NCBI RefSeq assembly: GCF_024496085.1
Contig: NZ_CP101751.1
Location: forward strand, 3,348,001-3,412,000
Length of the DNA: 64,000 nucleotides
Reading direction: 5' to 3'
Source: Flavobacterium cerinum
Lineage (GTDB): Bacteria > Bacteroidota > Bacteroidia > Flavobacteriales > Flavobacteriaceae
The notes under the pieces were generated by a model. It did not search any database. It saw nothing but the letters and a program-made list of their open reading frames with translations, and was not told where the DNA came from. Made by a program: the position numbers and the translations under genes. This document shows, one piece after another, positions 26,702 through 34,916 of this stretch; the stretch's first letter is position 1, and the number at the start of each line of letters is the position of its first letter.

Positions 26702-29700
26702 ATGAAAACACTTAACTACGAAGAGCGATTTGAAGAAGTGTGGAGACACTGCCAAAGAGGATTGGTATATCCGTCGCCATTTGCCATTTTTACAACCTTT
26801 TGGTTTAAAAGAGCGCATGAAAAACAACCGTTAACCGGTGATCAATTGATCGGACACAAAAGACATTTAGCCCGAGTAATGGCAGATATCCGTCTGAAAA
26901 TCAACAAAAGTGAAGCTTTAAAAGACAGGAACACCACCGTTATTTTAGGTATTTCATTTGAAAACTGGGCTATAATCAGTGCCGCAGAAGGAAAACCACT
27001 TCCAAAAGGGATGAAATTAAACTATCCGGAAGCTCATAATCCTTTCGAATCAAAAGTATTCCGGGCTTCAAACGGTGCTTTTGTCGACTCACAGGGCGAC
27101 ATCTGGTTTCATATTAAAAGTGACAGTGAAAAAGCCTGTGAGATTGTTAATGCCCTATTAATCGAAATTTTAGAGCCGATAACGAAAAAACATTATTCGC
27201 AGGAAGCCGCTTCTAAATCGAATGAAGCCGATGGCCACCGCGGAAAAGTACTCGGATGTCGTTTTTCGGAAAACCTGAACAATCCTTCTGATCCGATTTC
27301 AATAGCTAAGCACACTTTAATCGGTTGTGATGATATGGCTCATTTCGGCGGGTCATTTGTATTGGCACAACGTTTTCTGATCAACTGGAATCAGATCAAT
27401 ATGATGACAGAAGATCAGATTGAAGATCTTATCGGCCGTAAAACGGATGACACTATTATCCCGGATCGCGATTCCCGTTCACACATTAAAGCGGCTCGAA
27501 TTCAGGATACCAACGGAAACACTACTCCGGTTCTTCGTTTAGGATTACCTTTCGGAAGAGCAAAACAAAACGGAAACTCCGGATTCAGAAATCCGAAATC
27601 CGTTACCGTATCGGATGAAGAAGGTATCTATTTTGCCGGTTTTTGTAAAGAAATCGGGATTCTGGAAAACATCATGAGTAATCAGATCGGTCCGGACAGC
27701 GGTTTTATGAACGACCGTTTGTTTAATCATTTGCGATCCGACCTCGGCGGTATTTTCTATATTCCTAGTGTAGACGATCTGAAACTGGATGAATTAGAAG
27801 GATACAAAAACAATTATAGCTTTATTGAATCCAAAGATTGGTCACGTTTTCCGGGTGTAGACTGGACGCGTTTGGATCGTCATTATCAGAATGCTTCCAA
27901 AAACGAGCTGATGTATTACAACCATCAGAATTACCTTTTTACGATGTCTACCGAAATCGGGCGTAACAACGATTACTTCAAAGTACCTACAAATCGTATT
28001 TTAAGCCTTATGGAGAACATTTTCTCGTTATGGCAGGATAACTGGTACTTTAACCGCAAACAAGAAGAAATTAAAGAGGATATTCGTTTTTATATCGATC
28101 GTTATCACGGAAGCGATAAACCTTCGGATATTATGAACGAATCGATTATGATCCGTAAAGGATGGGCTATTCGTCTGAGCTTACAATTATTCAGCTCTGC
28201 CGATTACGGTTTCCGGGGACGTAAAATCCGACTTGAAGACGGAACATTGATTCCTTATTCTTCATTCCGTGAAAAAGACGGTCAAATCGTATACGGATCT
28301 GATACTTTCCGTATTTCACCGGAAGAAATTATTGTAGGTGCCATGCCTAATCTTTCACTGGGAGAAGGTCGCTATGTAATGCGTTATCTGACAGACAGTG
28401 AGCGTCTGGATGGTTTCCTTGTTAATCTGAGTGAGGCTTCCGGTGTGGGCCACGTAATTCCGCATTATGAAAAAGCGTTGCAAAAAGGACTAAAAGTCAT
28501 GATGGACGAAATCTTGGATTACGAAAAGAATACAACGGATACAACTAAAAAAGAACTTTATCAGTCGGCTTACCTGGCTTTAAAAGGAATTTCGGAATAC
28601 TGTCTGAATTATGCCGAACTGGCACGTCAGACTGCTGCAAAAATGAGCGCCGGACAAGCCTGGGAAAAAGAAAACCTGGAATCGATTGCTTACCGAATGA
28701 CCAAACTTGCCACGGAAAAACCGGACACATTGGTCGAAGCCGTACAATTTATCTTTACGCTACACAGCTGTCTGCACCTCAACGGAGAACCAACAGCTAT
28801 CGGTCGTATGGATCAGCTTTTACAACCTTTCTACGAAAGTGATTCCGTTTCCGAAGACGAAGCACAGGAAATCATTGATGCTTTCTATATCAAGCTGGAC
28901 GAAAAAGTACAGCAGAACCGTATTTTTATGGAAGATCATCAACCATTCGGAAATCTGGCTATGGGCGGTAGTTCCGGTCCTTATCCGCAAGGTGCTTCAT
29001 TAGGCCAATGGATCCAACAGATCACGGTTGGCGGTACTATTGTTGACGGAAATCCTGATTTTGAAGAAACTAGACCTGCTTATAATGACATGACGTTATT
29101 GTTTATCAAGGCTTCGGGAAGGTTACCGCTAAACGCACCTTGTTTGTCGTTACGAACCCGAAAAGATATTCCGAAGGAAATACTGGAAGCAGCAGCTCAT
29201 GCCCTTTTATCCGGCGGAGCACACCCGATCTTGCTAAACGATGAAAAAATCATCAAAGGTTTATACCACAGCGGAGACGGTGTAGGTGGAAAACTGGGCA
29301 GTGAAACCAAAAAATGGAACTCGGCTGTTAGTATGGAATCGGCACAGAATTATGCCTGCGACGGTTGTTATGAACCGCAATTCCCGGGTGAAAACTGGTT
29401 CTCTTTAGGCGGATTTTCTACTTTGCAACCGTTGGAATGCGCTTTAAACCAAGGTAGAACCTATTCATCAGCAGGTGAATCGTATTTATTCGGTCAGGTG
29501 GTTTCATTAAATTCCAAACCGGCCGATCAGATCAAATCATTTGAAGAACTGGTGGATATTTATTTCCAGCATTTCGAATGGTTAAACCGAAAAGCCTTTA
29601 ACGGTCAGCTAATGGGTTATGGTGCGAATACCAAATTCTGCCCTTCTCCTATTCTGAATGTCCTGATGGACGATTGTTTAGCAAGAGGTTTGGATTTTTA

Positions 29701-30667
29701 TAGCGGCGGAACCAAATACAACATCTACGGTCCTTGTTATATCTCGCTAAGTGCGGCCATTAATTCGCTTTATGCTATCAAAACAATGGTATTTGACGAG
29801 AAAAATGCCGTAACAACATTACCGGAATTACTGGAATGTCTGTGCTGTGACTGGGGCCATAAAATGACCGAACCGTTTATTAGTAATCTGGCCGGAGAAT
29901 CGCGTATTGCAGGCCGTTCCGATCGTTTTAAACGTCTAAGAGAAATTGCTTTGGCACAACCGCGCTACGGAAGAGGTCATGCCGATATTGATGCCTTTGG
30001 TAACACGATTGTGGAAGGTATTGCGAAAAAATCGGTGGCGACATTTACAGAACCCTGGCCGCAATTATATGAAACTTTTAAAAATATGGCTACCAAATTC
30101 GGAACGGAAGAATTTCCATTCGGACTTCAGATTCAGCCGGGTGTCGGAACTTTTGAAAACCATGTGGAAATGGGTGCCTGGAACGGAGCCAGTGCCGATG
30201 GTCGTCGTTTAGGTACTACGGTTGCTTCCGATTTAAGTGCGATGCCTAGTCCTGCTGATCTTCCTATCGAACATCAACATGCCGGATTTGAAGAATCATT
30301 AGCCGGATTTGACGGTATCGGTGCCGAAATGATGACAGACGGAGCGCCAACCGATTATAATATTGATGAAAACTTCCCGGTTGAAAAGCTGGTTCAGGTA
30401 ATGCAACAATTTGCAAACGGTCAGTCGTCCAATATCCTGACTATTACCGTAGCGAATCCGGATACCTTTACAGATGCGGTAGATTCACCGGAACAATACG
30501 ATCTGCTTCGTGTTCGTACAGGAGGATGGACAAACTTCTTTACATCGGTATTCCCTGTAATTCAGGATCAACACCGTCGTCGTCCCGTTTCGACTCCGGA
30601 AGAAGTACAAAAAGAAAAAAGAATGGCAAAAGGATGTCCTTTCCATCAGAAAATAGCACAGGAATAG
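26702..30667 (+). CDS. DyP-type peroxidase fused to a glycyl-radical-enzyme domain
   Basis: A 1321-residue two-part protein with no signal peptide. Residues ~1-350 resemble DyP peroxidases: His261 in SHIKAARIQD is the expected heme ligand, Arg279 in VLRLGLPFG the distal Arg, and DEEGIYFAGFCKEI a core strand. The GXXDG motif reads GCRFS (185-189), so its catalytic Asp is missing. Residues ~370-1321 resemble glycyl radical enzymes: GHVIPHYEKAL, IGRMDQLLQPFY, ILLNDEKII, the active-site Cys889 and Glu891 in CDGCYEP, and Gly1275 in VRTGGWTNFF, 46 residues from the end. The Cys-x-Glu layout is that of dehydratase-type members rather than pyruvate formate-lyase. It is monocistronic, with no activase nearby. 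The tail has a GCPFH motif. Confidence 0.88.
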   Translation: MKTLNYEERFEEVWRHCQRGLVYPSPFAIFTTFWFKRAHEKQPLTGDQLIGHKRHLARVMADIRLKINKSEALKDRNTTVILGISFENWAIISAAEGKPLPKGMKLNYPEAHNPFESKVFRASNGAFVDSQGDIWFHIKSDSEKACEIVNALLIEILEPITKKHYSQEAASKSNEADGHRGKVLGCRFSENLNNPSDPISIAKHTLIGCDDMAHFGGSFVLAQRFLINWNQINMMTEDQIEDLIGRKTDDTIIPDRDSRSHIKAARIQDTNGNTTPVLRLGLPFGRAKQNGNSGFRNPKSVTVSDEEGIYFAGFCKEIGILENIMSNQIGPDSGFMNDRLFNHLRSDLGGIFYIPSVDDLKLDELEGYKNNYSFIESKDWSRFPGVDWTRLDRHYQNASKNELMYYNHQNYLFTMSTEIGRNNDYFKVPTNRILSLMENIFSLWQDNWYFNRKQEEIKEDIRFYIDRYHGSDKPSDIMNESIMIRKGWAIRLSLQLFSSADYGFRGRKIRLEDGTLIPYSSFREKDGQIVYGSDTFRISPEEIIVGAMPNLSLGEGRYVMRYLTDSERLDGFLVNLSEASGVGHVIPHYEKALQKGLKVMMDEILDYEKNTTDTTKKELYQSAYLALKGISEYCLNYAELARQTAAKMSAGQAWEKENLESIAYRMTKLATEKPDTLVEAVQFIFTLHSCLHLNGEPTAIGRMDQLLQPFYESDSVSEDEAQEIIDAFYIKLDEKVQQNRIFMEDHQPFGNLAMGGSSGPYPQGASLGQWIQQITVGGTIVDGNPDFEETRPAYNDMTLLFIKASGRLPLNAPCLSLRTRKDIPKEILEAAAHALLSGGAHPILLNDEKIIKGLYHSGDGVGGKLGSETKKWNSAVSMESAQNYACDGCYEPQFPGENWFSLGGFSTLQPLECALNQGRTYSSAGESYLFGQVVSLNSKPADQIKSFEELVDIYFQHFEWLNRKAFNGQLMGYGANTKFCPSPILNVLMDDCLARGLDFYSGGTKYNIYGPCYISLSAAINSLYAIKTMVFDEKNAVTTLPELLECLCCDWGHKMTEPFISNLAGESRIAGRSDRFKRLREIALAQPRYGRGHADIDAFGNTIVEGIAKKSVATFTEPWPQLYETFKNMATKFGTEEFPFGLQIQPGVGTFENHVEMGAWNGASADGRRLGTTVASDLSAMPSPADLPIEHQHAGFEESLAGFDGIGAEMMTDGAPTDYNIDENFPVEKLVQVMQQFANGQSSNILTITVANPDTFTDAVDSPEQYDLLRVRTGGWTNFFTSVFPVIQDQHRRRPVSTPEEVQKEKRMAKGCPFHQKIAQE

Positions 30668-30767: not shown

Positions 30768-30784
30768 TAGTACAATTGTTTACT

Positions 30785-31354
30785 ATGACCCAATACGACC
30801 TTTTACGTCAACACATTGCTGAAATTTGTCCGCTTTCGGATAGTGAATGGGAATATGTTTCACAGCATTTTACCTTTCGGAAACTGCGCAAACACCAGTT
30901 TCTGGTTCAAAAAGGCGAAATGGTACCGTGTGAATTCTGGATCATTAAAGGATTGGTTAAAACCTATGCTATCGATTGTGACGGCAAAGAGCATATTCTT
31001 CAGTTTGCAATGGAAGAATATTGGACCAGCGATTTCCAGGCTTTTCAAAACCAGGTTCCGGCTTGTATGTATATGGACTGCATTGAAGATTCGGAGTTTT
31101 TTTGTCTGAAACTGGAAGACCGTGAAAAAATTTGTCATGAGATTCCGTCTATGGCTAATTTTTTCAGAATTAAAGCGCATTACGGTTATATCGCACTGCA
31201 ACAACGTATCATGTCGCTACTTACTGAAACTGCCGAAGAACGTTATAACAACCTCATCAAAAAACTACCGCGTCTTATTCAGCGTGTTCCTAAAAAGTTA
31301 CTGGCTTCTTATCTCGGCGTAACCCGCGAAACCCTTAGCCGACTTAAAAGCTAA
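30785..31354 (+). CDS. Crp/Fnr-family transcriptional regulator
   Basis: A 189-residue regulator with an N-terminal cyclic-nucleotide-binding-like beta-roll (FLVQKGEMVPCEFWIIKGLVK) and a short C-terminal winged helix ending KKLLASYLGVTRETLSRLKS. The ligand-binding Arg/Glu pair of Crp is absent, and there is no N-terminal cysteine cluster like that of Fnr. The signal is therefore unknown. A TTG codon at 30776 is in frame, but ATG is preferred. It lies between the DyP-GRE gene and the MFS/flavoenzyme operon and could act on either (inference). Confidence 0.9.
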   Translation: MTQYDLLRQHIAEICPLSDSEWEYVSQHFTFRKLRKHQFLVQKGEMVPCEFWIIKGLVKTYAIDCDGKEHILQFAMEEYWTSDFQAFQNQVPACMYMDCIEDSEFFCLKLEDREKICHEIPSMANFFRIKAHYGYIALQQRIMSLLTETAEERYNNLIKKLPRLIQRVPKKLLASYLGVTRETLSRLKS

Positions 31355-31451
31355 ATAGTGTGACCTACCTCACAAAAAAACCGTGATCTAATTCCTCGCA
31401 CAGCTCCGCTCCTGTTCGGACATTTGTACTGTTACTTTTAACACTACAAAC

Positions 31452-31514
31452 ATGACCGTTCAAAGTTGTTTTACCCGTTGCTATTACAAGCTATTGTGTA
31501 ATAATTATTACTAG
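31452..31514 (+). CDS. Putative Cys/Tyr-rich leader peptide (20 residues)
   Basis: A short ORF, MTVQSCFTRCYYKLLCNNYY, with three Cys and five or so aromatic Tyr codons. It starts 26 bases after a promoter-like GACATTTG (31419-31426) and is followed by a two-part hairpin at 31518-31556 that lacks a T-run. It precedes the MFS operon by 90 bases. A regulatory role is suggested only by composition and position. Confidence 0.35.
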   Translation: MTVQSCFTRCYYKLLCNNYY

Positions 31515-31604
31515 TTCGAGAGGTATCTGATTCTCATCGGATCACAAACCTATCTCATTCACTATTTAAAATTATTACAACTGCCTTTTGGGCAACAACA
31601 CTTT

Positions 31605-32819
31605 ATGGAAACAATTAAAAATATAAATACTGCTGCGGCAACTTCAAAATCTAAAAAACTTCCGGCTGCTTTATGGGCATTAACTATCAGTGCTTTTGGT
31701 ATTGGTACAACCGAATTCGTAATTGTCGGACTACTACCAACCGTAGCCAATGATCTGAAAACCTCTATTTCTTCTGCCGGTTTACTGGTTAGTCTTTATG
31801 CATTGGGTGTAGCCATAGGCGCACCGATACTAACCGCCTTAACCAGTCATATCAATCGTAAAAAGTTATTATTAAGTGTAATGGTTCTTTTTATCATCGG
31901 AAACGGATTGGCTTCTATCGCTCCTTCTTTTACGACATTAGTTCTGGCCCGAATCTTAACCGGATTTGCACATGGTGTTTTCTTTTCGATCGGAGCAACA
32001 ATTGCAGCCGGTTTGGTATCGGCCGATAAAAGAGCCAGTGCAATTGCTATTATGTTTGCCGGATTGACAGTCGCCATTGTAACCGGCGTACCTTTAGGAA
32101 CCTATATCGGACAACATTTCGGATGGCGCGCTACTTTTATCGGTGTTGCTGCATTGGGTGTAATCGGATTGATCGCCAGTAGTCTTCTCATTCCGAATTC
32201 CCAACAAAAAAACAAGCCCTTACAATTAAAAGATCAGTTAAAGGTTTTAAAAAATCCTTCTATCCTGTTGGTATTAGCTATAACAGCCTTGGGATACGGC
32301 GGTACATTTGTAACCTTTACTTATATGGCGCCGCTTTTACAAAACATATCCGGTTTTTCTGCCGATGCCACCAGCTTGCTATTATTAATTTACGGTATTG
32401 CTATTGCATTGGGAAATGTGATCGGCGGAAAAGTATCCAATCAGAAACCGATTAAAGCCTTGATGGTTATGTTTTTGTTACAGGCTGTTGTATTACTTAT
32501 TCTTTCTTTCACCGTATTTAATCAGATAACAGCAGTGATAACACTGTTTGCAATGGGAATTCTGGCCTTTTCCAATGTTCCGGGACTACAATTATATGTC
32601 GTTCAGATGGCCGAAAAATACCTGCCCGGTACAGAAGATGTAGCTTCAGCCTTAAATATTGCTGCTTTTAATATCGGTATTGCCATTGGTGCTTTTATTG
32701 GTGGTCATATCGTCGAATCTTCACTTGGTATCGAATCCACACCATGGGTCGGCGCCATCTTAGTTGCTATTGGCTTTTTAGTCACCCTTATCAGTTTTAA
32801 ACGCGAAAAAAACAATTGA
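31605..32819 (+). CDS. MFS transporter, AraJ/YdhP-like drug exporter
   Basis: A 404-residue major facilitator with twelve hydrophobic segments. The motif between segments 2 and 3 is ALTSHINRKKLLL, a variant of GxLaDrxGrkxxl. FGWRATF after segment 5 and LLSP-type features match the sugar-efflux/AraJ group (drug:H+ antiporter family 1). It heads a five-gene operon of flavoenzymes and reductases, so it probably exports a toxic compound or its product. Its TGA stop is 2 bases before the ATG of the next gene. Confidence 0.92.
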   Translation: METIKNINTAAATSKSKKLPAALWALTISAFGIGTTEFVIVGLLPTVANDLKTSISSAGLLVSLYALGVAIGAPILTALTSHINRKKLLLSVMVLFIIGNGLASIAPSFTTLVLARILTGFAHGVFFSIGATIAAGLVSADKRASAIAIMFAGLTVAIVTGVPLGTYIGQHFGWRATFIGVAALGVIGLIASSLLIPNSQQKNKPLQLKDQLKVLKNPSILLVLAITALGYGGTFVTFTYMAPLLQNISGFSADATSLLLLIYGIAIALGNVIGGKVSNQKPIKALMVMFLLQAVVLLILSFTVFNQITAVITLFAMGILAFSNVPGLQLYVVQMAEKYLPGTEDVASALNIAAFNIGIAIGAFIGGHIVESSLGIESTPWVGAILVAIGFLVTLISFKREKNN

Positions 32820-32821
32820 TC

Positions 32822-33808
32822 ATGGAAACAATTTGTGCTATTCATGTTCCCGGAAAAATGACTATCGGTTTGGAGTTTCCACTCGATAACGACTGGTCGT
32901 TGGAAGGAGAAAAAAAACGCAGTACATCCGGTCGCCCGTTTGGAATACCCGATATTAGCCGGCACGCAGAATACATCCGGCTAGCAGATCAGTTAGGTTA
33001 TGCAGCTCTTTGGATGCGTGAAGTTCCGGTTTATGATCCCGGTTTCGGCGATGGCGCGCAACTTTTCGATACTATAGCCTACTTAGGTTACATTGCCGGA
33101 ATTACAAAATCAATCACGATCGGTACAGCCGCTATTGTTTTACCCTTACACGATCCGTTACAATTGGCGAAAGCCGTAGCTTCAATCGAAAAACTATCCG
33201 GAAGCCGGTTTTTATTTGGTGTCGGACTAGGTGATCGTCCCGTAGAGTTCCCTTTATTCGGATACGATTTTGAAACCCGTGCGGAACGTTTTCGTCATAA
33301 TTATACCATTATAGAAGAAGCGTGGAAACCGGAAAGCAATCTGAGCTTATATTACGAAGGTTTAAATCAAAACATTCAACTATTTCCAAAGCCCGACAAT
33401 CCAATTCCCTGGATCCTTGCCGGACGCGCACAACAAAATATGGAATGGATCGCCCGTAATATGCAGGGATGGTTTAACTATCCCCGGCCGGTGGCAGAAA
33501 CATCAGAAATGATCATTGATTGGCGTAATACTTTATACGACAACAATCAGGCCTCTAAACCTTATATTACGGCTTTTCATCTGAATCTTTTATCAGATGA
33601 CGATGCTCCCTTTCGTCCGCATCGTTTCGGAGGAGCCGTAGGCATAAACAATTTGTTGCCTTTAATGAAGGAGTATGAAGAAGCCGGTGTTAATCATATG
33701 GCACTTCATCTTCGAAAATCAGAAACACCGATTAAAGACGCAATTGAAAAGATTGCAATCAAAATTTTACCTCATTTTAATCCAAAAGAAGAAAAATATG
33801 CTTTTTAA
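32822..33808 (+). CDS. LLM-class (luciferase-like) flavin-dependent oxidoreductase
   Basis: This TIM-barrel protein of 328 residues uses FMN or F420-type cofactors in its family. It opens with MTIGLEFPLDNDWS and has LGYAALWMREVPVYDP, then TIGTAAIVLPLHDPLQLAKAVASI, the hallmark of bacterial luciferase-like monooxygenases. LFGVGLGDRPVEF is the flavin-phosphate strand. A TTG at 32816 overlaps the MFS stop, but the ATG at 32822 is preferred. Neighbouring OYE, AKR and DJ-1 genes suggest oxidative breakdown or detoxification. The substrate is unknown. Confidence 0.9.
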   Translation: METICAIHVPGKMTIGLEFPLDNDWSLEGEKKRSTSGRPFGIPDISRHAEYIRLADQLGYAALWMREVPVYDPGFGDGAQLFDTIAYLGYIAGITKSITIGTAAIVLPLHDPLQLAKAVASIEKLSGSRFLFGVGLGDRPVEFPLFGYDFETRAERFRHNYTIIEEAWKPESNLSLYYEGLNQNIQLFPKPDNPIPWILAGRAQQNMEWIARNMQGWFNYPRPVAETSEMIIDWRNTLYDNNQASKPYITAFHLNLLSDDDAPFRPHRFGGAVGINNLLPLMKEYEEAGVNHMALHLRKSETPIKDAIEKIAIKILPHFNPKEEKYAF

Positions 33809-34916
33809 AAAATATTTACTCGGAAAACTCGAGTTACAAAACCGAATCGTTATGCCTCCTATGACCCGTTCGAGAGCGGCAAAAGAGGATATTGCCACAT
33901 CACTTATGGCCGAATATTACCGTCAAAGAAGTACTGCCGGTTTAATTGTATCCGAAGGGACACAAATTAGCCGTCAGGGCCAGGGATATGCCTGGACTCC
34001 GGGTATTTACACAACCGAACAAATAGCAGGATGGAGAAAAGTTACCGATGCCGTACATAAAGAAAACGGAATTATTTTCGCTCAGCTATGGCATGTTGGA
34101 CGTGTTTCTCATATCTCCTTACAGGAAAACAACCAACCGCCGGTTTCTTCAAGCGAACTGGTAGCGGAAGGTGTTTCCGTTTTTATTGATCCGGAAGGCA
34201 GAGGACCTGAAAACGGTGTCGGAGAAATGATACAACATTCCAAACCGAGAGCTTTAACGCAACCCGAAATTCAAGCCATTATAAAGGATTATGCCCAAGC
34301 GGCTCAAAATGCTATTTCAGCCGGATTTGACGGTATTGAACTGCATGCCGCCAACGGATATTTGATCAATCAATTTATTGATTCACAAGCTAATAATCGT
34401 ACGGATAATTACGGCGGTTCTCTCGAAAATCGGCTACGCTTTTTAAAAGAAGTAGTTCAGTCCATTACAGCGGCTATCGGTAACGAAAAAGTTGGCGTTC
34501 GTCTGGCGCCGTTAACTACGCTACAAGGAACAGTTGACGATAACCCGGTTGAAACCTATACCGAAGCCGTCAAACTTCTGGAAACCTTACAGGTAGCTTA
34601 TATTCATATTGCTGAAGCCGACTGGGAAGATGCTCCTGTAATGGAAGTCGCATTTAAAGAAAGCATAAGAGCTCATTTTTCCGGTACTTTGATTTATTCC
34701 GGAAAATATACAAAAGAACGAGCCGAGGAAGCCCTGCAACAAGGTTGGGCTGATTTAATCGGTTTCGGGCGACCTTTTATTGCTAATCCGGATCTTCCCT
34801 ACCGACTAGAAAACGATTTACCGCTAAATGAACCCAAACGAGCGTATTTCTTTGGCGGAAGCGTTACCGGTTATACCGATTATCCTTTTTATAACACAAC
34901 AACAAATACCTTTTAA
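33798..34916 (+). CDS. Old yellow enzyme-family NADH:flavin oxidoreductase
   Basis: This 372-residue FMN enzyme reduces electrophilic alkenes or nitro compounds. RIVMPPMTRSRA at the N-terminus, the active-site pair in FDGIELHAANGYLINQF, the segment NNRTDNYGGSLENR and the late GFGRPFIANPDLP are all diagnostic. Longer open frame upstream overlaps the previous gene. The ATG at 33798 gives the family-typical MLFKKYLLGKLELQN and an 11-base overlap, so translation is probably coupled. Confidence 0.95.
   Translation: MLFKKYLLGKLELQNRIVMPPMTRSRAAKEDIATSLMAEYYRQRSTAGLIVSEGTQISRQGQGYAWTPGIYTTEQIAGWRKVTDAVHKENGIIFAQLWHVGRVSHISLQENNQPPVSSSELVAEGVSVFIDPEGRGPENGVGEMIQHSKPRALTQPEIQAIIKDYAQAAQNAISAGFDGIELHAANGYLINQFIDSQANNRTDNYGGSLENRLRFLKEVVQSITAAIGNEKVGVRLAPLTTLQGTVDDNPVETYTEAVKLLETLQVAYIHIAEADWEDAPVMEVAFKESIRAHFSGTLIYSGKYTKERAEEALQQGWADLIGFGRPFIANPDLPYRLENDLPLNEPKRAYFFGGSVTGYTDYPFYNTTTNTF

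Follow-up and report, generated by a model that had tools for sequence, protein, structure and literature searches.

To our knowledge, every characterized glycyl-radical enzyme (GRE) depends on a radical-SAM activase and does not survive oxygen. The protein considered here may be a GRE that is charged in another way. It is encoded at positions 26702-30667 of a 64,000-nucleotide stretch of the Flavobacterium cerinum genome (contig NZ_CP101751.1; this whole stretch is called the window below), and it joins a DyP-type heme peroxidase to a GRE. A protein of this design has already been described, namely the DyP-PFL fusion (dyprx, DyP(B)-PFL; PFL is pyruvate formate-lyase) of the fungus Chaetomium cochliodes (PMC5041501). 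The available excerpts of that paper state that genomes of distant prokaryotes and eukaryotes encode the fusion as well, that the fungal gene is induced 3-fold by H2O2 and 18.5-fold by peroxyacetic acid, and that, as of 2016, what the fusion means "remains elusive". A similar gene is mentioned for Xylaria grammica in the available part of PMC8469222. A previous sequence-only reading of the window, which knew of no characterized protein with this architecture, is corrected by these two reports. In the open-licence literature, neither biochemical work on the fusion nor a description of the activase pattern presented here was found, and none of the papers listed on oxygen-tolerant GREs is about it, as judged by titles and the openings of abstracts; the architecture is already known, and the different activase patterns of fused and unfused GREs, together with the proposal that the fusion replaces the activase, are new to the literature searched.

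The window gene is a single intact gene for a DyP-type heme peroxidase followed by a GRE fold, as the sequence-only reading had claimed. Its features are as follows.

26702..30667, + strand: DyP-GRE fusion gene, 1321 amino acids plus stop (open frame, translation, full-length relatives)
26870..27778, + strand: DyP-type peroxidase domain, residues 57-359
27269..27271, + strand: Glu190, at the place of the catalytic Asp of DyP (GxxDG); aligned with the Asp of 9obr and others; 146/146 relatives
27482..27484, + strand: His261, expected proximal heme ligand; 146/146
27536..27538, + strand: Arg279, expected distal Arg; 146/146
28415..30583, + strand: GRE barrel and C-terminal Gly loop, residues 572-1294
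28451..28453, + strand: His584 of the GVGH motif; 146/146; aligned with GVGHV of diol/glycerol dehydratases
29366..29374, + strand: Cys889-Tyr890-Glu891; Cys and Glu 146/146
30524..30529, + strand: Gly1275 (expected radical site) and Trp1276; both 146/146

A search for the same two-domain order found 388 proteins that match the window protein over its full length, and the best 120 of the 388, which were examined for domains, all have both PF02901 and PF20628. The gene is one stop-free open frame of 1305-1374 codons in 25 of the 26 carrier genomes, and in the 26th (G024) it ends at the contig end. Two genes joined by an assembly error, which the earlier reading had considered, are thereby ruled out.

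The C-terminal half has the ten-stranded GRE barrel fold, so that the other refutation named in the earlier reading, the lack of such a barrel, does not apply either, and the active-site Cys889 and C-terminal Gly1275 picked out earlier are in register with those of solved GREs. We take Cys889 to be the thiyl-radical Cys and Glu891 to be its Glu partner in GRE chemistry. The Pfam Gly_radical model scores 16.6 bits on the window protein, which is below its cut-off of 22.2, and finds nothing across the window's genome. The N-terminal half is over the cut-off of the DyP family model and has the DyP fold; the heme site predicted for it holds as to the proximal His (His261) and the distal Arg (Arg279), but the distal Asp of GxxDG is Glu190. 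The first fusion family was represented by an alignment of 146 proteins, made up of the matches listed for the window protein and those listed for a search with a brittle-star entry, and Cys889, Glu891, Gly1274, Gly1275, Trp1276, His584, His261, Arg279 and Glu190 are each present in all 146. Invariance alone is not rare, because conservation of 98% or more is seen at 220 of the 1321 positions; this set includes the catalytic positions expected for the DyP and the GRE half alike.

The sequence-only reading saw no activase gene nearby, and this holds for the whole genome (4.08 Mb, one contig), where the best match to the activase model reaches 16.5 bits (cut-off 174.35). Three of 14 control genomes have a match over that cut-off. 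The window's genome encodes 14 radical-SAM proteins, nine of which are named by NCBIfam models over cut-off (MiaB, RimO, MtaB, HemW, LipA, BioB, HemN, ThiH and RlmN). One of the remaining five is QueE-like, although under cut-off, and the PFL activase model gives it 22.7 bits, where 231.75 is the cut-off; the other four match Pfam Radical_SAM, and one of these has a B12-binding domain over cut-off. HemN is oxygen-independent, and the earlier description of the host as an aerobic flavobacterium is not established.

An activase that is conserved along with the fusion was likewise sought in vain: none is over the cut-off in 25 of the 26 carrier genomes searched, and in these same 25 the fusion is the sole PFL-like protein. 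The exception is Shewanella abyssi, which has one activase over the cut-off, next to a normal PFL of 760 aa, and another activase-like gene, under cut-off with 130.7 bits, next to a 517-aa gene, presumably YjjI. Both are accounted for by the other GREs that they adjoin, and so, this exception is explained. The next-best carrier match has 73.6 bits (Trinickia), followed by Hahella with 38.1 bits; all of the others have at most 32.3 bits, and the seven of these low-scoring matches that were inspected all begin like what we take to be MoaA. The Trinickia terrae match (L046:1501-2230) is a PflA-like piece in which no CxxxCxxC was found, perhaps the remnant of a lost activase. Because no activase is over the cut-off in the window's genome and in 25 of the 26 carriers, the fusion was not filed as an ordinary activase-dependent GRE. 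Three fusion-bearing Acinetobacter genomes have no activase over the cut-off; a plasmid of Acinetobacter towneri (NZ_CP127890, hit H16) carries a GRE that is not fused, and an activase is annotated under the match.

The unfused relatives display the opposite pattern. A draw of 392 genomes from the phylum gave matches in eight, with the first-family fusion only in the window's own genome. Two of the genomes in this draw, G147 and G264, have unfused GREs with GGW motifs and a radical-SAM gene adjoining each; when the search was extended around each of them, 1 of 86 and 5 of 247 genomes matched, both seeds counted, and three further GGW loci were gained. In all five loci read of these unfused GG[W/F]-clade GREs, an adjoining gene is over the activase cut-off (184-219 bits). 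The fifth match of the 247-genome search (L064) is a VAGY GRE outside of the clade, and no radical-SAM open reading frame (ORF) was found within the short flank read. Four other genomes (G123, G182, G202 and G398) have ordinary GREs (PF02901, 725-763 bits) and activases over cut-off. Counted by genome, an activase over cut-off is present in 7 of 7 genomes with an unfused GRE and in 0 of 27 genomes with a fused GRE only (the window's own, 25 carriers and G303, which is described below); the p value of this table is a guide only, because the genomes are related, many of them being Pedobacter, and are not phylogenetically independent. The partner of a GG[W/F]-clade GRE is either a DyP or an adjoining radical-SAM activase; the fusion carriers read have the former without the latter.

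A second fusion family pairs the same GRE clade with another DyP subclass. Its representative is a 1304-aa DyP-GRE protein of G303 (Chryseobacterium defluvii, according to the record of an identical protein), the DyP of which has Alr1585 as its best PDB match (E 1.8e-75), followed by DyP2, and the GRE of which is 27-29% identical to the window GRE. With BLAST, the DyP parts of the two families have no significant similarity (E 1.1), whereas the GRE parts do (E 4e-74); the window GRE is slightly nearer to the unfused GRE P0163 (E 9e-85). The 28 proteins listed as relatives of the G303 protein were classed as 14 fusions, 12 unfused GREs, one DyP without a GRE and one VAGY GRE. Asp191, His317, Arg345, Cys879, Glu881 and Gly1282 are each conserved in 14 of the 14 fusions, and so, this family, unlike the first with its Glu190, has kept the catalytic DyP Asp as Asp191. 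G303, the one second-family genome searched, has no activase over the cut-off (best match 26.1 bits). A draw of 320 genomes for this family gave three matches and one fusion, since two of the three matches cover only residues 12-462, the DyP part. A tree of 59 GRE domains places the second family together with unfused GREs (SH-aLRT 98) and the first family on a long branch. Despite this grouping, a clade joining both fused families is not rejected by the approximately unbiased (AU) test (p 0.16), and two proven fusion origins are not claimed. A third arrangement is found on a Hymenobacter cellulosilyticus plasmid (L071:6091-9430), where a GGW GRE split over two frames has a separate DyP gene, broken in the record, behind it on the same strand; the breaks in the two genes are either real or sequencing errors.

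We consider it an even bet that the DyP domain replaces the radical-SAM activase, with peroxide-derived ferryl heme making the protein radical. The sequence-only reading had suggested that the peroxidase could protect the radical enzyme, supply oxidizing equivalents or replace the usual activase; the comparative data favor the last of these. Taken as a whole, the interpretation given in that reading is partly supported. The DyP domain would bind heme via His261, and H2O2 or a peracid would convert the heme to ferryl heme. The oxidizing hole might then pass over protein aromatics (Trp1276 beside the Gly and perhaps Trp1051) to Gly1275, or straight to Cys889, and the Cys889 thiyl radical, together with Glu891 and His584, would drive a reaction of the eliminase/lyase type within the barrel. 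The host would gain an oxygen-tolerant GRE, presumably with its radical on Gly1275, that could be activated or reactivated amid oxygen and peroxide. In an alignment subset of 25 of the 146 first-family, 14 second-family and 17 unfused rows, Trp1051 is Trp in 25/25, 11/14 and 0/17, respectively, and Trp1276 in 25/25, 14/14 and 11/17; this pattern, found post hoc, may point to the radical path, and it is only a lead.

Activase replacement is supported by the two folds and by the residues of the heme and radical sites, which are conserved in both families; by the absence of an activase over cut-off from the carriers (with the one explained exception) and its presence beside the unfused relatives; and by two DyP subclasses on one GRE clade. 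The GRE and DyP gene pair of the Hymenobacter plasmid and the induction of the fungal gene by peroxide and peracid (PMC5041501, in the excerpts available) also favor it. Several points weigh against it. The first family has Glu190 in place of the catalytic DyP Asp, the AU test does not reject a single origin of the two fusions, and the genomes behind the activase table are kin. A divergent activase could score low, as the Shewanella gene with 130.7 bits does. Finally, Chaetomium cochliodes, itself a fusion carrier, has a putative PFL activase according to the excerpts of PMC5041501.

The peroxidase could instead protect its partner, by removing peroxide near an oxygen-sensitive GRE that another protein activates. 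The induction of the fungal gene by peroxide and peracid and the putative fungal activase (both from the same excerpts of PMC5041501) fit this explanation, which we consider unlikely, because no activase is over the cut-off in the window's genome, 25 of the 26 carriers, G303 or G1152 (a divergent carrier described below), while the unfused relatives have one next to the GRE in 5 of 5 loci. Proteins that are fused or encoded side by side often act in consecutive steps, and both active sites are conserved in both fusion families; the two halves could thus form a two-step catalyst, in which the DyP oxidizes a substrate and passes it to the GRE, or the reverse, with activation by other means. This is improbable, as it leaves the absent activase and the pairing with two DyP subclasses unexplained. 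More generally, neither a protector nor a catalytic partner would make an activase dispensable, and DyP occurs without one in the carriers, which is why we favor DyP as the activator.

There is very little chance that a general radical-SAM protein of the host (e.g., a QueE-like or B12-type one) activates the GRE. There are candidates, since five of the 14 such proteins in the window's genome are without a name over cut-off, but not one of them looks like a GRE activase (best 16.5 bits vs. 174.35; the QueE-like protein, 22.7 vs. 231.75). It is hardly to be expected, and the least probable of these explanations, that the GRE domain is radical-free and its barrel a scaffold or a binding domain. 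The low Gly_radical score (16.6 bits) and a motif unlike RVxGY would suggest this; however, the Cys, Glu and Gly are present in 146/146 and 14/14 fusions, and unfused relatives beside activases have the same GG motif.

First-family carriers among the matches listed include Pedobacter, Acinetobacter, Burkholderia, Shewanella, Xenorhabdus, Corallococcus, Archangium, Saccharothrix, one cyanobacterium and the brittle star Amphiura filiformis. The brittle-star protein (P0104) is a full-length fusion, 50% identical and on a 64.7-Mb contig, and may reflect a gene transfer to an animal or contamination. A draw from the class of Trinickia matched 2 of 370 genomes, the new one being G1152. The divergent fusion of this genome (L074:1525-5166; 39% identical) has the motifs DGCYE, GGW and SHIK, and its match is interrupted by two stops; no activase is over the cut-off in G1152 (best 21.3 bits).

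The neighboring genes have no conserved operon that points to a substrate, and the largest flank clusters besides the fusion are found in 6 of 27 loci, the window included. The flanks of 26 loci (L001-L026), some of them short, contain a single ORF over 150 aa with CxxxCxxC, in L007, which was read as an alcohol dehydrogenase. Downstream of the window gene (30776-34916) are genes for a cNMP-binding-domain regulator, an MFS transporter, a luciferase-like monooxygenase and an OYE-type flavoprotein; among the 26 loci, this arrangement, judged by ORF order and length, recurs only in Flavobacterium supellecticarium (L001). An FGE-sulfatase-domain gene (PF03781; 185 and 194 bits) is upstream on the same strand in the two loci read for it, L055:3800-4759 of G303 and L072:4882-5886 with a divergent fusion on an Asticcacaulis plasmid. 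In G303 it is preceded by a XendoU-domain gene (L055:2688-3779).

Tentatively, and with slightly less than an even chance, the two families may represent a class of heme-peroxidase-activated glycyl/thiyl radical enzymes, in which ferryl heme stands in for SAM chemistry and which has two DyP subclasses and occurs in bacteria, fungi (as reported) and a brittle star (one entry). If true, a GRE charged by heme and peroxide would be a new way of making a catalytic protein radical, would explain why genera regarded as aerobic keep an intact GRE and would make radical dehydratase/lyase chemistry accessible in a form compatible with oxygen. The comparison of fused and unfused GREs makes the elusive meaning of the fusion (PMC5041501, as excerpted) testable on one protein.

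Compared with known systems, the window protein is most simply set beside Chaetomium cochliodes dyprx, which also has an N-terminal DyP and a C-terminal PFL/GRE; by its description in the available part of PMC5041501 rather than by its sequence, it differs in being fungal and in having a putative activase in the genome. The B12-independent glycerol/diol dehydratases (1r8w, 5i2a) are GREs that share the Cys-x-Glu and the GVGH His (Cys889, Glu891 and His584, 146/146), but they are without a DyP domain, are about 20-26% identical and have AGY where the window protein has GGW. At the places of the 1r8w pocket residues, which we take to be the His-Ser of GHSIS and the Asp of WHD, the window protein has Glu696-Pro697 and, by eye, Ser901. 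The dehydratase or lyase suggested by the sequence-only reading is plausible from Cys-x-Glu and His584, although the glycerol-dehydratase pocket is not fully kept. The B/P-type DyP peroxidases (DypB, DtpB, 9obr) share the fold, the proximal His and the distal Arg with the window DyP; the window protein differs from them in having Glu190 at the place of the catalytic Asp and in being fused to a GRE. Our working analogy, with no relationship claimed, is class I ribonucleotide reductase. That enzyme has a dimetal site, two subunits and a stored Tyr radical; its metallocofactor, charged by O2 or peroxide, generates a radical on the protein, and this radical arrives at a Cys located in a barrel.

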